A stretch of DNA of 64,000 nucleotides from Treponema sp. (GTDB taxonomy: Bacteria > Spirochaetota > Spirochaetia > Treponematales > Breznakiellaceae): contig WQYB01000004.1 of NCBI GenBank assembly GCA_009781475.1, positions 1-64,000 of the forward strand. The letters run 5' to 3'. Of the stretch, positions 54,513 through 64,000 are shown one piece after another. The notes beneath the pieces are model-generated. The model saw only the letters and a list, made by a program, of their open reading frames with translations, was not told the DNA's origin and ran no database searches. The stretch's first letter is position 1; every line of letters begins with the position of its first letter. Position numbers and translations under genes: made by a program.

Positions 54513-55595
54513 AAAACGAACGACTTTTATTTTAATCTTCCTGAAAACTTAATCGCGCAGTTTCCTTCCAAAGAAAGAGGGCAGAGCAGGCTTTTACTTT
54601 TAAATCGTATAACAGGCGAAAGAATTCACAGTAATACCGATCAATTACCTGATATTCTATGTGAAAAAAAGTTTTTAAGCCCGTCAGGTGAAAAACCATT
54701 ATTAGTTTTTAATGATACAAAGGTGCGAAAAGCCCGCCTTACCGGAAAATCAATTGAAACAGGAACAATGGTAGAATTTTTGTTACTTGAATATGACAAA
54801 ACTTGCAATGAATGGAAAACAATTGTACAACATGCAAAACGTCGGAAACCCGGCAGCCGTTATGAATTTTTTGATAAAAATAAAAATATTATTGCAGAAG
54901 CTGTAATAACAAAAGCGCAGGATGAATTTAGATACATACAAATAAAAAATAAAATCGATAATAAACCAATCGACGATGATTTTTTTGATAAATACGGTCA
55001 TGTTCCGCTGCCGCCTTATATAAAAAGAAAAGACGAAAGTATTGACAGTGAAAGGTATCAGACAATTTATGCAGACAAAACAGGATCTGCTGCAGCGCCA
55101 ACGGCTGGACTGCATTTTACACAAGAAATTTTAGACAAACTTGATTTATTCGGCATAGAAAGAGTTTTTATAACACTACATGTAGGTTTAGGAACTTTTT
55201 TACCTGTTCGTACTGAAAACATAATAGAGCATAAAATGCACAAAGAAACATTTTTTATAAATGAGATGACTGCTAAAAAAATAGAAAACGCAAAAGAGGC
55301 GGGACGTAAAATAATAGCAATTGGAACTACAAGTGTACGCACTTTGGAAAGCGCATGGGATAATAATATTAAAAAAATCGTACAAAAAGAAGGGGATACT
55401 TCGATTTTTATTTACCCCGGTTATAAGTTTAAGTTGGTAGATGTTATATTTACAAATTTTCACACGCCGGAATCTACACTTTTAATGCTTGTATCCGCCT
55501 TTGCAAATAAGGATATAATTCTGGAATGTTATACCGAAGCAGTAAAAGAGCAATATAGATTTTTTAGCTACGGTGATGCAATGCTGATTTATTAA
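54510..55595 (+). CDS. queA: S-adenosylmethionine:tRNA ribosyltransferase-isomerase QueA, apparent ATC start
   Basis: Adds the cyclopentenediol precursor in queuosine synthesis on tRNA. The track begins at GTG 54723, but the frame is open from 54510 and encodes the conserved family N-terminus (KTNDFYFNLPENLIAQFPSKE, shortened quote: FYFNLPENLIAQFPS) and VFNDTKVRKARLTG. From ATC the protein is 361 aa, the expected size; from GTG it would lack about 71 conserved residues. Other motifs: TGSAAAPTAGLHFT, VGLGTFLPVR, IGTTSVRTLES, NFHTPESTLLMLVSAF. ATC is very rare as a start; a single base change from ATG (or a sequencing error at 54512) would explain it. Convergent overlap of 32 bp with the GT2 gene. 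Confidence 0.88.
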   Translation: MKTNDFYFNLPENLIAQFPSKERGQSRLLLLNRITGERIHSNTDQLPDILCEKKFLSPSGEKPLLVFNDTKVRKARLTGKSIETGTMVEFLLLEYDKTCNEWKTIVQHAKRRKPGSRYEFFDKNKNIIAEAVITKAQDEFRYIQIKNKIDNKPIDDDFFDKYGHVPLPPYIKRKDESIDSERYQTIYADKTGSAAAPTAGLHFTQEILDKLDLFGIERVFITLHVGLGTFLPVRTENIIEHKMHKETFFINEMTAKKIENAKEAGRKIIAIGTTSVRTLESAWDNNIKKIVQKEGDTSIFIYPGYKFKLVDVIFTNFHTPESTLLMLVSAFANKDIILECYTEAVKEQYRFFSYGDAMLIY

Positions 55596-56889
55596 CAGGA
55601 AACAATGTTTGCGCAGCTTCAAAAGGAATTCTGTCTGTTGTTTCCCATTTAAAATAATCATAACTTGTAGTAAAAGCGGCAATAAAGATACGAAAATACC
55701 CGATTGTATATATTGGATTAAAAAATAAAACAGCCAATTTTTCGGATAACGGAATCTTTATATTACGCCAATCAACGATAAGCGGCAAAAGAGTGAAGGC
55801 AAAAAGAGAGCCGTATATAAATAAAAATGAAATTACCGCAAGGCGCAAAGCCGGCACAAGACTTACAGCATTACCGAAAAGTGAAAAACAGATAGCGGCA
55901 ATACCGAATATCATCACCGCCGCAGAAACGCCGAGTAGCGCATAAGCGGGATATGTACTGTATAAAAAATCGTAGTTTTTGCGCAATTTTACTTTTCCTG
56001 AAAATGTTTTTTTAACGATTTTTTTATGGTAACGCCGCTGGCATTGAGTATAACCTTTGATCCAGCGCATCCTGCGTTTAAAAGCAGTTTTTGCATCGGT
56101 TGCTTCTTCTGTATAAACCCTTGCATAAGAATAATAAAATGTTGTCCAGCCTTTTAAAATAGCATCGGCTGTCATTTCATAGTCCTCAGTAAGACCGCGG
56201 TAAGGCCAGCCGTTATTTTCTTTTATTACATCTGTACGCACCATCATACCGGTTCCGATTATTGTGATAGTCATATCTAAAATATTACGGGCGCGGTTTC
56301 CAAGTTCGTCTACCTGTGTCCATGTAAGAGCAGTACAGTTTGAAATAATTGATCTAGAATCACAGCGGCGGCTTAGCCAATTTTTTACAAGTTTTTTACC
56401 GCAGATGATCTGTTTGCCGCTGCCAAGAGCATTATTCATTTCTTCCACCAGATCGGGTGATGCAAGATTGTCAGCATCTACTATCAAAAATGCTTCGTAC
56501 TTATCCGGAGTATCGGTTAGTATTTTTTTTAGAATACCGTCAAGAGCATCACCCTTACAGGTTTGACCGCTTATTATAGTCACATAGGTGCGTTCATAGG
56601 AAGCGGCGATTTTTATTGTGGGATCGGCATGGTCTGCAACAACGATATGGACATCGAAAAACTCGGGATTATAAGTTTGAGCGGCAAGAGAATCAAGACA
56701 ATGGCTAATAACAGCACTTTCATTTCTGGCAGGAACAATGACGGCGATTTTATTCATTTTTGGATTATTAAGTCTTTTTTGCTTTCTGAAGGCGGCAAAA
56801 TAATAGCTGATACGCGGTAAAAATAATGTAAGGGCTGCAATACAAAACCAAAGATAGATTTTCAAAGCCAATTCTGTTGCGTATTCCAT
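55564..56889 (-). CDS. Membrane glycosyltransferase family 2
   Basis: 441 aa. N-terminal helix (IYLWFCIAALTLFLPRISYYF), GT-A catalytic domain with VIVPARNESAVISHCLDSL, DXD-like FLIVDADNLASPD near residue 140, acceptor-site TEDYEMTADAIL, and the QxxRW-type RRMRWIKGYTQCQRR; then three or four C-terminal helices. Architecture resembles processive or polysaccharide-type synthases (BcsA, IcaA or NodC class) and also glucosyl-lipid transferases. The acceptor is unknown. It lies alone on the minus strand; an outward-facing surface glycan role is likely. Confidence 0.82.
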   Translation of the reverse strand: MEYATELALKIYLWFCIAALTLFLPRISYYFAAFRKQKRLNNPKMNKIAVIVPARNESAVISHCLDSLAAQTYNPEFFDVHIVVADHADPTIKIAASYERTYVTIISGQTCKGDALDGILKKILTDTPDKYEAFLIVDADNLASPDLVEEMNNALGSGKQIICGKKLVKNWLSRRCDSRSIISNCTALTWTQVDELGNRARNILDMTITIIGTGMMVRTDVIKENNGWPYRGLTEDYEMTADAILKGWTTFYYSYARVYTEEATDAKTAFKRRMRWIKGYTQCQRRYHKKIVKKTFSGKVKLRKNYDFLYSTYPAYALLGVSAAVMIFGIAAICFSLFGNAVSLVPALRLAVISFLFIYGSLFAFTLLPLIVDWRNIKIPLSEKLAVLFFNPIYTIGYFRIFIAAFTTSYDYFKWETTDRIPFEAAQTLFPVNKSALHHRS

Positions 56890-57018: not shown

Positions 57019-57441
57019 ATGACAGAAAAAATGATTGAACTTGGTTTTAAGGAACCGGAAAAGAAAAAAAGGCTTTTTAGCATTCGTCACTGGGCTCGTA
57101 ACAATTTAAAAGATGACAATATATACTCTGTAGAAGAAAACGTAGATAACATTAATTTATCGGAAGGAAGTTATTTACATATAATAGCAAGAAACGGAGG
57201 CTCTTTTATTTTGGAAGAAGGAGCCACTTTAGTAGCTCCTAATCTTGAAAAATGTAACTCTATAATATTAAAAGCGGGAGCAAAAGCATGGCTTCCTAAT
57301 CTTCAAAAAACTGAAGAAGGATGGTTTGCCGGCGGCGATATAAATAGAAATGGCATGGTTCTTGTTGAAAAAGGTGCGTTAATATATGCTCCCCGTGCAA
57401 TATTTAAGCAACAAGCAGGAGACGGAGAGTTCCTTACATAA
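57019..57441 (+). CDS. Small protein of unknown function, possible beta-helix
   Basis: 140 aa, GGAGG 9 nt before the ATG. Basic N-terminus (EPEKKKRLFSIRHWARNN), then a pattern of short beta strands with Gly turns (SEGSYLHIIARNGGSFILEEGATLVAPNL, shortened: IIARNGGSFILEEGATL; IILKAGAKAWLPNL; MVLVEKGALIYAPRAIF), similar in rhythm to bactofilin or pentapeptide-like beta-solenoids but without a match I can name. No signal peptide. It stands alone with a strong promoter region and a perfect terminator, suggesting an expressed gene. Confidence 0.7.
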   Translation: MTEKMIELGFKEPEKKKRLFSIRHWARNNLKDDNIYSVEENVDNINLSEGSYLHIIARNGGSFILEEGATLVAPNLEKCNSIILKAGAKAWLPNLQKTEEGWFAGGDINRNGMVLVEKGALIYAPRAIFKQQAGDGEFLT

Positions 57442-57504: not shown

Positions 57505-58605
57505 TTAATAGAAAGCATTTAATAAAACTTCCGCAACAGCTTTAGCGCCTGAAATATCATTACAGCTTTTTTCATTGTAAGAAAACTTTTTTAAAAGTTC
57601 ATAATCGTTTTTGAAAAGCCGGTCTAAAATACAGGATAACTCTTTGGGAGAGCCGCATTTTAAACCATATTCATTTTCAACTATATATTGATAATTTTTT
57701 TCTTCCTGTCCGGGTATGTGCCCTGTAATTATAACAGGAACGCACATTTTTACAGCTTCTAAAATCATATTGGGACCGGCTTTTGCGATTAAAATATCAG
57801 CGTTAGAAAGCCTTGAATCCATATCATGAACATAACCTAACACAGAAACATTTTTTTTGTTTAATAGTTTTTTGTCCAGGTATTCCTTTAGTTTTTTGTT
57901 GCTTCCTGTTACAACAGTTAAATTTACATCATATTTTAAAGCTGCAAGTATAAATTTCAATGTTACTTTATCGCGTTTTAAGCTGGGGCTTACCATTAAA
58001 ACATCAGGAACTGAAATATTTGTTTTCGGTTTTTTATTTATTTTGTTAAATTTTTCATTTATGGGAAAACCGGAATGAAATAATCTTTCTTTTTTAAAAC
58101 CCTTTTTTAAAAGCGCATTATACATTTTGATTGTAGGCACAAAGGTTATCTTGCATTTTTTATCATGCCAAAGGTGTGAATGTTTAACCAGGTCTATAAT
58201 GCAAGTGTAAAGCGGAGTATTTAATTTCATTCTTTTTAAACAATTAGTAATACTTCCGACAAAACATGGATGCACCGATAAGATTATATCCGGCTTATAA
58301 TCATTAATTAATATGCTGAAACGTTTAAATATAGCCTGATAAAGAATAAAATTTGAAAAACCTCTGAAAAACGATGTAAATTCAAAAAACAATTTCCAGA
58401 AAAATCTATATCGAGTTGTAAAAGAAATATAACCTTTTTCATCACCGTCGTAACCGGGAAAAAACTCCATAGAATCAAATGCTAAAACATCCGTATTGAG
58501 GTTTAACTCTGAAAGAGCATTTTTTATTGCATCTGAGCTGCTTTTGTGCCCTCCGCCTTTTCCGGATGTTAAGATTAGGATTTTATTTTTGGTATTCGTT
58601 TTCAT
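57505..58605 (-). CDS. MGDG-synthase/MurG-like glycosyltransferase
   Basis: 366 aa GT28-type enzyme. The N-terminal ILTSGKGGGHKSSSDAIKNAL is the diagnostic start of monogalactosyl- and glucosyl-diacylglycerol synthases (UgtP/MGD1); the C-terminal donor domain has ADILIAKAGPNMILEAVKMC and VPVIITGHIPGQEEKN, as in that family. Such enzymes transfer a hexose to diacylglycerol at the inner membrane. Being last in an operon with an acyltransferase and a fatty-acyl ligase supports a lipid acceptor. AAGGA sits directly against the ATG. Sugar specificity unknown. Confidence 0.85.
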   Translation of the reverse strand: MKTNTKNKILILTSGKGGGHKSSSDAIKNALSELNLNTDVLAFDSMEFFPGYDGDEKGYISFTTRYRFFWKLFFEFTSFFRGFSNFILYQAIFKRFSILINDYKPDIILSVHPCFVGSITNCLKRMKLNTPLYTCIIDLVKHSHLWHDKKCKITFVPTIKMYNALLKKGFKKERLFHSGFPINEKFNKINKKPKTNISVPDVLMVSPSLKRDKVTLKFILAALKYDVNLTVVTGSNKKLKEYLDKKLLNKKNVSVLGYVHDMDSRLSNADILIAKAGPNMILEAVKMCVPVIITGHIPGQEEKNYQYIVENEYGLKCGSPKELSCILDRLFKNDYELLKKFSYNEKSCNDISGAKAVAEVLLNAFY

Positions 58606-58615
58606 TCCTTAAGTT

Positions 58616-59044
58616 TTAGAAAAAATTATGAAGAGCGGTACTGAGTACTGCAATTAATATACCAATGTAAAAAATCCAGAATACTGTCATGAATATGGAT
58701 AATGCCAAGCCGATGCTGCCCGTAATTACACCTGCTAATGCAATATGAAATTTATCATGACTTTCATTTAAAACAGTTCGTGCCTTTTTACCTGTTGATA
58801 TAGCAATAGCGCCTAAAATAATGCCTACAATGAGCCAGCTTGTAACAAGACTTATTATACCCATAACAAGGGAGGCTACAGCTCTGGATTCAGAATCTGC
58901 GATTTCAGGTGATGGTTTAAAAACCAGATTATTGTCATTAGACTCTTGAACTATTGAATTTTGCTGCGGTTCAGCTTTATTACCGCAAGAGGAGCAAAAA
59001 GCAGCGTCATTTTGAAATTCTTTGCCGCATTTAGAACAATACAT
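58616..59044 (-). CDS. Zinc-ribbon and DUF4190-like membrane protein
   Basis: 142 aa. N-terminal zinc ribbon MYCSKCGKEFQNDAAFCSSCG (two CxxC pairs), a linker, then a DUF4190-type part with two or three membrane helices (AVASLVMGIISLVTSWLIVGIILGAIAI and GVITGSIGLALSIFMTVFWIFYIG). Function unknown. GGAGG lies inside the end of the hydrolase gene, 1 nt away, so it is co-translated with the operon. Confidence 0.8.
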   Translation of the reverse strand: MYCSKCGKEFQNDAAFCSSCGNKAEPQQNSIVQESNDNNLVFKPSPEIADSESRAVASLVMGIISLVTSWLIVGIILGAIAISTGKKARTVLNESHDKFHIALAGVITGSIGLALSIFMTVFWIFYIGILIAVLSTALHNFF

Positions 59045-59045
59045 A

Positions 59046-60047
59046 TTAATTAACCTCCGTAATTTTTACATTATTATATTTTTGCAAGAAATTTGCAATA
59101 GCTTTATCGTAGTCAGCTTCTTGTGAAGATCTGACATGGGAATGTCTGCCTTCCGGGAAAAACTTAAGTTCTTTGTATTTTGAAACACATGAATTAAAAA
59201 GTTCCTCACTTTTAGATTTAATACAAAAAATATCTTTTGCACTCCAAATGAATAAAAACGGGATTTCAATATCTTTCATATATTTTTTTGGAGTTTCTTC
59301 AAAAAGCCTGACTCTGGCAAGAATAAATGCAAGGAAAAAAACCAAATAAAGCATAGGAAAAGGGCGTTTTTTACGCAATTTAAAATTTTCTTTGAATATT
59401 TCGTAAAAACTTAAAAATATTCCGTCAGTAACTATTCTTTTTACTAAATCGCTGCCTTCATTTTTCAGTTTGATATAAGCAAAGACTGCCGCAGCTCCTC
59501 CGATGCAAATTCCGTGAAGCGTAAAATCGGTTATGGAATATTTTTTGTTAATAAGTTTTATCCATGAAACTAAATCGCCGCTTTCCTTTATACCCGAAGT
59601 TATATATTTTCCGTCACTAAGACCATGCGCCCTGACATCGATTACCAAAATATTGTAACCGTTTTTTTTATAAACATCTGCAAAATAATAAGAGTACAAA
59701 AGCGATTCAGTTCTTCCTTGCAGGATTACAGCGCATTTGTCAAAACCGAAATTTATATATTCGCCGTATAAATTAAGTCCGTCATTTATTATATGCAGCT
59801 CTTCTGTTTTATCCTTGAATTGCAATGCCCAATTAATTCCTTCAGAAAACATATACATTTGCTGTTCATCTTTTGTATTGGTACATTCTCTTGTTCTTTT
59901 CTTCTTTGGGTTGCGGTACATTGTGTTGCAAAAAATTATAATAGGAATTAAAAAGAACATAATAATACCGCTTACAGCCCCAAAAGAGGCTGCGGCAATA
60001 GCGGTAATTACCCAGGGGTTTTCCAATGCGAGAATTGATGAAATCAT
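59046..60047 (-). CDS. Alpha/beta hydrolase with Cys nucleophile, membrane-anchored
   Basis: 333 aa. N-terminal membrane helix (AAASFGAVSGIIMFFLIPIIIF), then an alpha/beta hydrolase: GRTESLLYSYYFADVYKKNG, DVRAHGLSDG, the elbow HGICIGGAAAV, acid FIWSAKDIFC and catalytic His in EGRHSHVRS. The elbow Ser of GxSxG is Cys here, as in dienelactone hydrolases (GYCLGG). The gene overlaps the DegV stop by 4 nt. Substrate unknown; in a lipid operon a thioesterase or lipase-like step on acyl carriers or lipids is a reasonable guess. Confidence 0.83.
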   Translation of the reverse strand: MISSILALENPWVITAIAAASFGAVSGIIMFFLIPIIIFCNTMYRNPKKKRTRECTNTKDEQQMYMFSEGINWALQFKDKTEELHIINDGLNLYGEYINFGFDKCAVILQGRTESLLYSYYFADVYKKNGYNILVIDVRAHGLSDGKYITSGIKESGDLVSWIKLINKKYSITDFTLHGICIGGAAAVFAYIKLKNEGSDLVKRIVTDGIFLSFYEIFKENFKLRKKRPFPMLYLVFFLAFILARVRLFEETPKKYMKDIEIPFLFIWSAKDIFCIKSKSEELFNSCVSKYKELKFFPEGRHSHVRSSQEADYDKAIANFLQKYNNVKITEVN

Positions 60048-60991
60048 AATTTGCTTACTATGTCATTTATGATTTCTTTTTCAAACTTCAAGTCTGTTAT
60101 TTCTGTTCCGAAATAGTATGCGCCAAGAAGCCCGGGACCTACGTTTATACCGCACATAGGATATACGTTGCAAATAATTACTTCTTTTGGTTTTATTTTT
60201 TCAATAATTTTGGAAGCCAGGATTTCAGCCTGTTTTTTTCTTGCTGAATGAGCGACAAAAATAATCTGTTCGTTTGCAGATTTAATTGTTTTTTCAATAT
60301 ATTCAACTGTAGCTTTGTATGCCTTTTCGTAGCCGCTTACCTTTGTTAAAACTGTAACCATGCCGTCAGGACCAAAATCTCCCATAGGTTTTATCCCTGC
60401 TACAGTACCGAAAAATGCCTTAGCGTGAGAAATTCTTCCTTTAGATGCGACCCAAAATAAATCGTCAATGGGACCCATTTGATGAAGTGTCATTTTAATC
60501 TTTTCCAGCTTTTGTGCATTTTGCTCCAGTGATAAACCTTCCGCGCGGAACTGACAAGCCTTTACAGTTAAAAGTCCCAGAGCTACCGAATATTTTCTGG
60601 AATCTACAATAAATATTTTTCGTTCGGGGTATTTTTCCAATAAAGCTTTTTGTGCGCATGTCATTACATTGTATGTTGCGCTGAGGCTGCTTGATATGCA
60701 TAGAGCCAAAACGTCTTTTCCTTGCTGCAAAAAAGATTCAAAATATGAAGTAACATCATCAACACTGAGCGCGGCAGTTTTGTATCCGTTTTTATTTGAT
60801 TTTAATGACGAATAAAAATTGTCAAGCTCTTCATCGCTTAAATCAAGCCTGCCTTCGACATCATCTGCTTCCGGGGTACATAAATAACCTTTAAGGTAAC
60901 CGTCAACTTCAAAGCGAGTCCTAAGTTCTGGTGACAAATCGCAGGCTATATCAGCAAAAACTGCATAGCTGTACTGTTTTTCTTCATTCAT
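60044..60991 (-). CDS. DegV-family fatty-acid-binding protein
   Basis: Start at ATG 60991 (315 aa), with AGGAGGAATT upstream. DegV fold: SYAVFADIACDLSPELRTRF at the N-terminus, CISSSLSATYNVM near residue 95 (the Ser loop that binds the carboxylate), DSRKYSVALGLLTVKA, and GRISHAKAFFGTVAGIKPM. DegV proteins (FakB in Gram-positives) bind free fatty acids and hand them to kinase FakA; FakA is not in this window. Here the neighbours suggest it supplies fatty acids to the acyl ligase two genes upstream. 8 nt after the PlsC-LRAT gene. Confidence 0.9.
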   Translation of the reverse strand: MNEEKQYSYAVFADIACDLSPELRTRFEVDGYLKGYLCTPEADDVEGRLDLSDEELDNFYSSLKSNKNGYKTAALSVDDVTSYFESFLQQGKDVLALCISSSLSATYNVMTCAQKALLEKYPERKIFIVDSRKYSVALGLLTVKACQFRAEGLSLEQNAQKLEKIKMTLHQMGPIDDLFWVASKGRISHAKAFFGTVAGIKPMGDFGPDGMVTVLTKVSGYEKAYKATVEYIEKTIKSANEQIIFVAHSARKKQAEILASKIIEKIKPKEVIICNVYPMCGINVGPGLLGAYYFGTEITDLKFEKEIINDIVSKL

Positions 60992-60999
60992 AATTCCTC

Positions 61000-61977
61000 C
61001 TAAATTTTTAAAGTAACTCTGTTTGCAAAGTCCAGGCAATTATTGTTTATTATACTATATCCGCCTTGTCCAAGACATGATTTTGCATACTTTTCAATAT
61101 CTTCCGCATTTCTAATAAATCTTTTTTCGCTTCTTTTCATCGTGCGTACTTCAGGGATTTTAGCGCCGCAAAAATCCTTCAAAGAAATAGAATTAACAAT
61201 TACATTTTCTCCTGCTCTGTTTACAGTATAGCCAAATTGAATAACTTCGTCTGCATTAATATATACGCCGTAATGGTGGTGAGAACCTGCATTAATGCGG
61301 ATAATGTCGCCTTTTTTAGGCGAGATAAAATCATATTTATTGGAAAACTTCTGCGCTTTTTCTCTTTTTAATTTATAAAAAAGCATTAAATATTTATTGC
61401 TTATTTCAGCATTTATTTCTTTTAATTTTTCTTTTGTAAGTTCTGTATCTGAATAATCCGATAAATCTATGCTGTTTCCGATCATTACGTGAACTCTCTT
61501 AAAAAGTCCGTAATTAAAATCGTTAACAACCGGAATTATCTTTACTCCTGTTTTTACTGCAATCATTATATATCCTTCAGAAAATTTTGAAGGTTCGTAT
61601 GTAAACTTAAAACCGCCTTCGGGAAACATCAAAATGGGTCTGCCCTTTGCGGTTATTCTTTTGCTTTTTTGAATAAAATCTAGGCTGCGCCCGTCTCTTT
61701 CAATAAAAATGCCTCCGGCTATTCTTATTAATAGTTTTAATAATTTACGTTTTTTATTGTACCAATCAATAACCAAAAAGTGTAATCTTTCAAAGAAAAA
61801 TATAAGAGCGATAACAATACCGTCCATAAAAGATCGATGGTTAGAAATAATTAAAGCGCTGCCGTTTGTCCGTTTAATTTTTTTATTATTGTCCTCATAA
61901 TAAGTTTTTGTTTTAAATATAAAAAGCTGAAAAAGTAAAAGCTGTATAAGTCCGAAGTAATATATAATTATACTCAT
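61000..61977 (-). CDS. PlsC-type acyltransferase fused to an LRAT-like (permuted NlpC/P60) domain
   Basis: Start at ATG 61977 (325 aa), overlapping the upstream stop as ATGA. Domain 1: N-terminal membrane helix (IIYYFGLIQLLLFQLFIF), PlsC motifs NHRSFMDGIVIAL (HX4D), ERDGRSLDFIQ, FPEGGFKFTYEPSKF and a PVVND-type block. Domain 2 (from about residue 222): KKGDIIRINAGSHHHYGVYI, VIQFGYTV and SIINNNCLDFANRV, which match the His, second polar residue and Cys of LRAT/H-rev107 enzymes. PlsC adds acyl groups to lysophosphatidate; LRAT-type thiol enzymes move or remove acyl groups through a Cys intermediate. The fusion is one continuous frame with no indel visible. Confidence 0.85.
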   Translation of the reverse strand: MSIIIYYFGLIQLLLFQLFIFKTKTYYEDNNKKIKRTNGSALIISNHRSFMDGIVIALIFFFERLHFLVIDWYNKKRKLLKLLIRIAGGIFIERDGRSLDFIQKSKRITAKGRPILMFPEGGFKFTYEPSKFSEGYIMIAVKTGVKIIPVVNDFNYGLFKRVHVMIGNSIDLSDYSDTELTKEKLKEINAEISNKYLMLFYKLKREKAQKFSNKYDFISPKKGDIIRINAGSHHHYGVYINADEVIQFGYTVNRAGENVIVNSISLKDFCGAKIPEVRTMKRSEKRFIRNAEDIEKYAKSCLGQGGYSIINNNCLDFANRVTLKI

Positions 61978-63932
61978 AACATCTCTTTTATATAATTGTA
62001 AAAGCACTGCGGAGTGCGTAAGTTTTGGTTTTTTTCCAGATTGATTTGAATGTTAAATATACTTTCAATTTCACATATCAATGTAAAATAGTCAAGACTG
62101 GTTGCGCCTAAATCAATAAAGAAATCTGAACCAGTTTGTACTTCTGTATCAGTATTTGCTGCAGATTTAAACACTTGTTTAATTAATAACATCGCAGCAT
62201 CGTCTGTTTTGTCATCTTGTTTATAACAGATGTCTTTAAGATTTCTGCTATTCAATAAAATAACTTCGCCTTCAGTGATTTTTCGTTTTAATAACTCGCG
62301 CGAAACTTTAATCGCATTTGGGTTTGCAATTAACTGTCGGGTTACAAAAATCTCTTTTACATTCTGTCCGTAGGTGATTTGCGCTAAAGACTTTTTTAAT
62401 ATTTCTATTTCATTGGAAATTATTGTGTCCGGCAGCTTTTCGTTATATTCCAAAACGATTGAAAGTTTTCCATCCAGTTCTAAAACGCATAGTTTGTTTG
62501 CATTTTTAACTTTTAATTCATTTTGAATTGTATCAGGATGTATATTTTCGCCGTTTTCACTGATAAAAAGATCGCTTTTCCGTCCTACAATGTAATGCCG
62601 TCTGTTTATTGTTTTTATTATATCATTAGTTTTTATACAGTAAAAACCGCATTGATTTTCTTTAAGTGTGATAATTTTTTTACAAATAGAACTGCCGGAT
62701 ACAACTAAAGTTCCGTCTTCGTTATAAGTGTAATCGGCGCTTATAAAAGGATTCCCTATTGAGCCGTCTGTTCGTTTTTTTATTCTCTTTGAAAGATTTG
62801 CTCCTGTAATAGCAGTTTCTGTAGTACCGTAACCGTTAAAAAGCGGATAACCGATGCAGTTAATGATTTTTAAAGCATCGCTTTCTATATAAGCACCGCC
62901 TGAAATCATAAACACAGGAGATAATCCGAACGATGCGGCAAGTACTTCTTTAAAAAGTTTTTTTGAAATCCAAACACCTAATGACGGAAAAATATTTTGC
63001 AAGGCAAAAGCAAGTTTTATACCTCTTTGAAATTTCTTTTTTCGTACTTCGCTTTCCTGCGAAATCCCATTCATTATTCCTTTGTGTAATTTGTGGAAAA
63101 GGATCGGAGGGGCAAAAATATGCGTTACCTTGTGCCTATTTATTGTTCCCCTTATAGTGTCCGGGGAATTGTCTTTGAGAAAAACCATTGTACGTCCGAA
63201 AAAAGCAAACCAAAAATAACTTACCATAATTCCAAAGATGTGAAAAAGCGGTAAAATCATAACAACCTTAATTCTTTTTTTGTAGTCATTCATAAGCCAA
63301 TTATTGGTTTTTATAATATCTTTTGTATTTAATATTTGATTTACAACAGCCTCACCGTCAAATACGCATATCTTTGCTTCAAGACCTGTAAGAGTAGAAG
63401 ATAAAGCAAATTCATTATCCCAAAATTCATCTGAAATTTGCATATTTTTATTTTCATAAGTGTCAATATTTATAACAGTAAAATCAATATAGTCATTTGA
63501 AGATGTTATTACCAGATTAACATTAAGGATTTTTAGGAGTTTTATTCTTAGATCCGCAGGGTAAAACGAATTAACAAGATACGGTTTGTTGCCGCTCATT
63601 AAAATTGCCCAAAACGAAATTAAAAAATTTGGCGTATTAACAAGGTCAATAGCAATATATTCACCGGATGTATCAGGATATGTTTGTTTTATAAATGCTG
63701 CAAATGATCGTATCTGTAAATCTAACGTTTTGTAGGTTACTGCATCAATTTCTAAATTGACAAGCCTTTCGTATGCAAAAAGGTTTTCATGTGAAAATAT
63801 TATTTTATATATATCTTTGAATGTTTTATCTGATTTCATTACAGCGTTCAGGTTCTTTTTAATAGTTTTTTTATAATTTTCCATAAAATCTGATAACCCT
63901 TTAATATGCTCCGATAATAAAATCAGATTCAT
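61974..63932 (-). CDS. AMP-dependent acyl ligase with a C-terminal acyl carrier domain
   Basis: 652 aa from ATG 63932 (GAAGG 8 nt upstream); the track's TTG 63947 is possible. Adenylating domain: VNTPNFLISFWAILMSGNKP, FHIFGIMVSYFW, AFGLSPVFMISGGAYIESDAL, GYGTTETAITGANLS, and DTIQNELKVKNANK-type C-terminal lobe. The usual Gly/Ser/Thr-rich P-loop (YTSGTTGxPKG) is not visible: at that place there is LSSTLTGLEAKICVFDG, so adenylation may be altered. The last 80 residues form a phosphopantetheine carrier domain, FFIDLGATSLDYFTL, with the attachment Ser near 612. Product: an acyl group activated and held on its own carrier, ready for the acyltransferase encoded downstream. First gene of the operon within this window. 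Confidence 0.85.
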   Translation of the reverse strand: MNLILLSEHIKGLSDFMENYKKTIKKNLNAVMKSDKTFKDIYKIIFSHENLFAYERLVNLEIDAVTYKTLDLQIRSFAAFIKQTYPDTSGEYIAIDLVNTPNFLISFWAILMSGNKPYLVNSFYPADLRIKLLKILNVNLVITSSNDYIDFTVINIDTYENKNMQISDEFWDNEFALSSTLTGLEAKICVFDGEAVVNQILNTKDIIKTNNWLMNDYKKRIKVVMILPLFHIFGIMVSYFWFAFFGRTMVFLKDNSPDTIRGTINRHKVTHIFAPPILFHKLHKGIMNGISQESEVRKKKFQRGIKLAFALQNIFPSLGVWISKKLFKEVLAASFGLSPVFMISGGAYIESDALKIINCIGYPLFNGYGTTETAITGANLSKRIKKRTDGSIGNPFISADYTYNEDGTLVVSGSSICKKIITLKENQCGFYCIKTNDIIKTINRRHYIVGRKSDLFISENGENIHPDTIQNELKVKNANKLCVLELDGKLSIVLEYNEKLPDTIISNEIEILKKSLAQITYGQNVKEIFVTRQLIANPNAIKVSRELLKRKITEGEVILLNSRNLKDICYKQDDKTDDAAMLLIKQVFKSAANTDTEVQTGSDFFIDLGATSLDYFTLICEIESIFNIQINLEKNQNLRTPQCFYNYIKEML

Positions 63933-64000
63933 GCTGCTTGCCTTCAATAAATGAAAACTCTATATTACTATTTTTTTCAAAATGCACATGAATACTTTTT

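Follow-up and report, generated by a model that had tools for sequence, protein, structure and literature searches.

The minus strand of the window (the whole stretch of 64,000 nucleotides of Treponema sp. DNA that was analyzed) contains, at 61000-61977, a single open frame of 325 residues with its ATG at 61977, in which a PlsC-type acyltransferase is joined to an LRAT-like domain. All window features given below lie on this strand unless stated otherwise. The acyltransferase domain (residues 31-151, 61525-61887) matches Pfam family PF01553 with an E-value of 2e-20 and 73.3 bits, against a cut-off of 23, and carries the HX4D motif (residues 47-52 with H47 and D52, in NHRSFMD; 61822-61839) and the FPEG motif (residues 118-121, 61615-61626), which extends to FPEGG at residues 118-122. 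The LRAT-like domain (residues 220-321, 61015-61320) was assigned by its match to PF04970 (E-value of 3.7e-12, 47 bits against a cut-off of 24.3) and by its fold, and is the only LRAT match in the entire window genome (E-value of 4.5e-12 in the whole-genome search, well beyond chance). Three motifs stand out in this half, namely HHHYGVYI with His235, the putative catalytic base (61273-61275), VIQFG with Gln247 at the third triad position (61237-61239), where canonical LRAT/PLAAT domains have His, and NNNCLDFANRV with Cys314, the putative nucleophile (61036-61038). An alignment of 42 LRAT domains further places Tyr307 (61057-61059) as the equivalent of the conserved NlpC/P60 tyrosine, the role of which is described in PMC3142127. 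The protein ends at residue 325, right after the LRAT domain, and lacks the C-terminal membrane helix of PLAAT enzymes. The first-pass annotation, which had joined these acyltransferase and LRAT motifs in one frame without naming a strand, thus located them correctly, and its description of the C-terminal domain as LRAT-like agrees with both the above-cut-off Pfam match and the PLAAT-like predicted fold.

Structural models were built from the six orthologues (pLDDT 44) and from the 42-row alignment (pLDDT 83, pTM 0.66), of which the latter was used. Residues 1-210 of this model match the Thermotoga maritima PlsC structure 5kym with a Z-score of 16.3 over 190 residues and an rmsd of 3.7 (Foldseek, VIA-align 2). 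Residues 217-325 match human PLAAT4 (7zot) with a Z-score of 14.5 and HRASLS3/PLAAT3 (4dot) with 14.1 (VIA-align), while across PLAAT2/3/4, including HRASLS2, the scores are 13.5-14.5 over about 100 residues (Foldseek, VIA-align 2). The LRAT half is therefore modeled as a permuted NlpC/P60 fold of the PLAAT-like type. Structure prediction of the C-terminal residues had been proposed as a check in the first-pass annotation, and the fold obtained for 217-325 is like, rather than unlike, that of LRAT/PLAAT. An NlpC/P60-type peptidoglycan hydrolase is unlikely, as relatives of the domain are fused to a cytosolic phosphopantetheinyl transferase (PPTase) and the listed structure matches are PLAAT enzymes.

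The fusion gene lies in an operon with several genes of lipid metabolism. Its ATG overlaps the stop codon of the upstream gene (ATGA, 61974-61977), and the two are therefore probably translationally coupled. This upstream gene (61974-63884) encodes an AMP-binding acyl-acid ligase (PF00501, 6.9e-26) with a C-terminal acyl carrier protein (ACP) domain (PF00550, 2.8e-4). The 3' end of a FakA-like fatty acid kinase gene is found at 63901-64000, and the gene continues outside the window (L002 3902-5479), where its product shows Dak2, FakA-like_M and FakA-like_C domains; ahead of it, also outside the window, are genes for an MFS_2 transporter and a Gly_transf_sug glycosyltransferase. Downstream of the fusion gene follow a FakB/DegV fatty-acid-binding protein (60044-60994; PF02645, 4.7e-46, with a FakB1 model match of 4.2e-26 that is below the cut-off of that model), an alpha/beta hydrolase (59046-60047; PF12146, 8.1e-12), which is found at every locus of the window PlsC-LRAT lineage, and a small zinc-ribbon/DUF4190-like membrane protein (58616-59044), named from sub-threshold Pfam matches. 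Next are a glycosyltransferase resembling MGDG synthase and diglucosyl-DAG synthase (57505-58605; PF06925, 6.6e-14, and PRK13608, 2.3e-30, the latter below cut-off) and a family 2 glycosyltransferase (GT2) (55564-56889; PF13632, 1.9e-23), which is 70-72% identical to the copies in the Bacillota operons. A plus-strand frame of 140 residues beside these genes (57019-57441) had no Pfam match. Nearly all genes of the operon are carried by the loci L023 and L024 at 64-75% identity, and a core of glycosyltransferase, ligase-ACP, PlsC-LRAT and hydrolase is found in genomes G006, G015 and G209. Taken together, the gene content suggests an operon for fatty-acid activation, salvage and lipid acylation, apparently of an undescribed type, and the presence of glycosyltransferases suggests that the final lipid may be a glycolipid. 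The activity of the ligase should be considered uncertain in the PlsC-LRAT lineage, as its ATP-binding loop reads SSTLTGLEAK, as compared with MSSGTTSSPK in the Bacillota relatives.

Full-length orthologues with the same two domains, at 66-73% identity, were found in G006, G015, G209 and two Oscillospiraceae metagenome-assembled genomes (MAGs; L023 and L024). A more distant orthologue in G1183 has the same domain order, with 45% identity in the PlsC domain and 53% in the LRAT domain. The fusion, including the window protein, is thus present in seven genomes from two phyla, and since these genomes are independent, an assembly artefact or a spurious join of two genes is ruled out. In the window protein and the five closer orthologues, H47, D52, FPEG, H235, Q247, Y307 and C314 are all invariant, and the second glycine of FPEGG is the only motif residue that varies among those five. 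As identity among the orthologues is no lower in the LRAT half (70-72%) than in the PlsC half (62-74%), the LRAT half is taken to be under constraint. The domain fusion is real, conserved and apparently undescribed; its families are known, while their arrangement is new and one catalytic position is altered.

This altered position separates the domain from the canonical family. The His of the dyad is present in 42 of 42 aligned LRAT domains, and no domain aligned over the Cys column lacks that residue (two insert-bearing rows are misaligned at this point, yet contain NNCEHF), so that the conservation of Cys314 in homologues, on which the initial reading had depended, is borne out. The third triad residue, however, is His in all 28 canonical domains, whereas the 14 domains of the window subclade have Gln, Glu or Ala there. 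In the window protein, the triad thus reads Cys-His-Gln rather than Cys-His-His, while two relatives have Glu or Ala, the latter in L097. In the window-type PlsC-LRAT fusions, the canonical NCEHF has also drifted to NNC(L/F)DFA. Because of Gln247, our claim is limited to a divergent LRAT-like subclade, to which the window domain is assigned by sequence, and does not extend to canonical LRAT/PLAAT enzymes. The changed residue could reflect altered or weakened catalysis, although mutagenesis cited in PMC3142127 suggests that the third triad residue may be dispensable in LRAT.

In the tree, the subclade (21 rows) is split from 25 canonical domains with support of 100/99, and it occurs in three states, namely as a lone gene, as a PPTase fusion and as a PlsC fusion. 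With a carrier-protein model, all 20 subclade loci were found to have an ACP at a distance of no more than 1.5 kb, as compared with none of 30 canonical LRAT loci. The corresponding Fisher value of 2e-14 should be read with the consideration that these loci, being related and having one operon in common, are not independent, and that some of the subclade loci themselves went into building the model. Nonetheless, the model also detects E. coli AcpP at 2e-16, and is therefore not blind to ordinary ACPs. At L091-L096, L105 and L056/L057, the LRAT-like domain is the N-terminal part of a fusion with an Sfp-type PPTase, encoded directly after an ACP gene. The operon of the LRAT-PPTase type also contains a gene for a patatin-like phospholipase in two Bacillota genomes (L098 3521-4456 and L103 3802-4734).

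The unfused state offers a view on how the fusion could have come about. In Bacillota of the family/order around G417, the subclade LRAT is not joined to PlsC and is either fused to the Sfp-type PPTase or encoded by a lone gene. The genes there are ordered as ligase-ACP, PlsC1, PlsC2, in some cases a second ligase, ACP, and LRAT or LRAT-PPTase, while hydrolases, FakB (two copies in relatives), MFS and FakA are found after or beside the LRAT genes. A PlsX gene (PF02504) adjoins FakA in L116, with similar frames in L117 and L118; the window operon itself has FakA and FakB, PlsX being present only in the relatives. The window protein aligns as PlsC1 and LRAT joined end to end. We infer that PlsC2, the second ligase and the ACP gene may have been deleted from within the operon, and that the PPTase part was either lost or never gained. 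The seven PlsC fusions form one LRAT branch (support 100/99), and the PlsC half of the window fusion groups with PlsC1 (92/82) and not with other sampled PlsC homologues of the genus.

A second PlsC-LRAT fusion was found in L043 and L044 (family f3 of the same order). It consists of PlsC and a canonical LRAT with the His and NCEHF, followed by a hydrophobic C-terminal tail, and no ACP was detected nearby with the carrier-protein model. In the trees, the LRAT halves of L043/L044 group among the canonical LRATs (100/99), and their PlsC halves fall near PlsC2 (96/90, or 85/79 with more rows); it should be noted that support for the PlsC placements, both with PlsC1 and with PlsC2, is moderate. A single origin of all PlsC-LRAT fusions is unsupported, as both halves of L043/L044 place apart from those of the window fusion, and the combination seems, from these trees, to have arisen twice, independently. 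The data support the view that the PlsC and LRAT halves belong together, as the two are encoded by separate genes of one operon in Clostridia and as PlsC and LRAT were seemingly fused twice.

As the unfused operon and the deeper fusion both occur in a Bacillota order, Bacillota are the likely source, and the window-type fusion probably originated in Clostridia, with subsequent movement between Bacillota and spirochaetes. The window PlsC-LRAT is 73% identical to that of L024 and 66-67% identical to those of the congeners G006 and G015, while for RuvB the window genome shares 79-83% identity with congeners, as compared with 55% with the L024 genome. Spirochaetal FlaA genes are present in the window genome and absent from the genomes of L023 and L024. 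Horizontal transfer between phyla would fit these values. Mis-binning of the L023 and L024 MAGs is a conceivable alternative, although the genes flanking these loci differ from those of the window. L024 is suggested to come from a termite gut, as its sample name, Emb289, recurs in a paper on termite MAGs (PMC7024585).

Each half of the protein, as well as the operon, can be compared with known systems. The PlsC half shares HX4D, FPEG and the fold with PlsC (PF01553, 5kym), the window protein differing in its additional C-terminal LRAT. The LRAT half shares with LRAT/PLAAT (HRASLS; PF04970, 7zot, 4dot) the permuted NlpC/P60 fold and the His-Tyr-Cys residues, but has Gln for the second His and NNC(L/F)DFA for NCEHF, has no C-terminal membrane helix and is linked to ACP genes. 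The placement of PlsC beside an acyl-acid ligase, with an MFS transporter in some loci, is reminiscent of Aas and the lysolipid transporter LplT, and NCBIfam Aas-type models match the PlsC half, if weakly and far below cut-off. Here, however, the ligase is a separate, overlapping gene fused to its own ACP rather than one polypeptide with PlsC, an LRAT is added, and the transporter is of the MFS_2 type and absent from some loci. FakA and FakB, along with PlsX in the relatives' loci, recall the FakAB-PlsX salvage of Gram-positive bacteria, although the present system also has ACPs of its own, along with two PlsC paralogues, a ligase and the LRAT. Finally, LnsA of Staphylococcus aureus is likewise a permuted papain-like enzyme implicated in bacterial acyl transfer (PMC7387801); it works with LnsB rather than PlsC, and the likeness is drawn from its description.

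Our preferred reading, which we consider an even call, is that the fusion is a membrane-associated lipid acyltransferase with two active sites, fed by the neighboring ACP and acting in an operon for the salvage of fatty acids and the acylation of lipids. In such a scheme, the ligase, or FakAB with PlsX in the relatives, would load acyl chains onto the ACP, and the PlsC domain would use one chain from the ACP to acylate a hydroxyl group on a glycerolipid or lysolipid. Cys314 of the LRAT domain would accept an acyl group in thioester linkage, the donor being either this ACP or this lipid, and the group would then be handed to another acceptor on the lipid, or to water, with the PlsC half replacing the membrane anchor that PLAAT enzymes have as a C-terminal helix. 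That the PlsC half transfers an acyl chain from ACP to lipid is very likely. The LRAT half has the requisites for a thioester intermediate on Cys314, its catalysis being putative.

As to the donor of the LRAT half, acyl-ACP is favored over lipid, since adjacency to an ACP is common to all three architectures and since the PPTase fusion points the same way. BtrH is a papain-fold precedent for ACP-dependent acyl transfer (PMC10318531), and PMC7387801 describes LnsA as an NlpC/P60 enzyme needed for lipoprotein N-acylation, with an unknown acyl donor. Several points count against the two-site reading and should be considered, namely that characterized LRAT/PLAAT enzymes use phospholipid and not ACP as donor (PMC4624172), the presence of Gln247, the changed ligase loop and the second fusion without an ACP. 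A more far-reaching version, that the subclade is a new papain-fold class with acyl-ACP as donor, that the fusion attaches acyl chains from a single carrier at two positions of the same lipid and that it forms the core of an undescribed lipid pathway of gut Clostridia and spirochaetes, is put forward only tentatively.

A donor on the lipid side leads to a Lands-type remodeler in one protein, in which the LRAT half would deacylate a membrane (glyco)phospholipid in the manner of PLAAT phospholipase A1/2, PlsC would refill the lysolipid from acyl-ACP, and FakB, FakA and the ligase would recycle the fatty acid. The nearest structures, being PLAAT phospholipases/acyltransferases, agree with such a role, as do the neighboring FakB and FakA, which capture free fatty acid, the patatin-like phospholipase in the operon of two relatives and the resemblance of the PlsC half to the Aas acyltransferase domain; moreover, that PlsC and LRAT were seemingly joined twice suggests a shared lipid substrate. 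As remodeling leaves both the PPTase fusion and the constant ACP adjacency of the subclade unexplained, we regard it as possible but rather unlikely. Those same two observations, with ACP adjacency at 20/20, would be accounted for if the LRAT half edited the ACP, as a thioesterase that removes incorrect acyl groups in a housekeeping role alongside PPTase, ligase and PlsC. An ACP editor would, however, be out of place in a fusion with PlsC, and the vicinity of the second fusion lacks an ACP, which makes this role improbable. Least probable is a non-catalytic domain that binds or positions ACP or membrane, for which the changed third triad residue (Ala in L097) and the drift of NCEHF to NNC(L/F)DFA could be cited, as His, Tyr and Cys are invariant in the subclade despite its deep divergence from canonical LRAT.

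We found no paper joining LRAT with PlsC or PPTase in bacteria, although this is weak proof of novelty, as subscription papers were mostly outside the search. The role of bacterial LRAT-type proteins is poorly known, and the subclade offers a strong genomic clue that the canonical sampled LRATs lack, with ACP, a kinase pathway and PlsC in one operon and three fusion states. It may show by which route certain gut bacteria incorporate salvaged fatty acids into their lipids, and in what way acyl carrier proteins take part in lipid chemistry of the LRAT type.

The surroundings of the module differ between genomes. Aryl polyene (APE) loci hold a PlsC-type ApeD, ACPs and an acyl-ACP synthetase, according to PMC8253772, and a near-complete cluster of the aryl polyene type (L061, L086, L087, L060 and L088) borders the PlsC-LRAT module in G015 and G209, with genes for Ketoacyl-synt_2, an ApeI-like dehydratase, MMPL, LolA-like proteins and lipoproteins, as well as an aromatic amino acid lyase in G015. 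In G006, the module adjoins LolA, DUF3261 and MMPL genes. Ketoacyl-synt_2 (PF13723), with matches in G015 and G209, had none in the window genome (G000, 93% complete) or in the two Bacillota genomes of L023 and L024. Membership in an aryl polyene cluster was rejected, as the adjacency is limited to two genomes and the module exists without APE genes; the module may instead have been recruited at such clusters as an acyl-attachment unit. G015 also encodes, at L035 163-1929 (reverse complement), a protein of about 590 residues in which an LRAT domain is located at the C-terminus.
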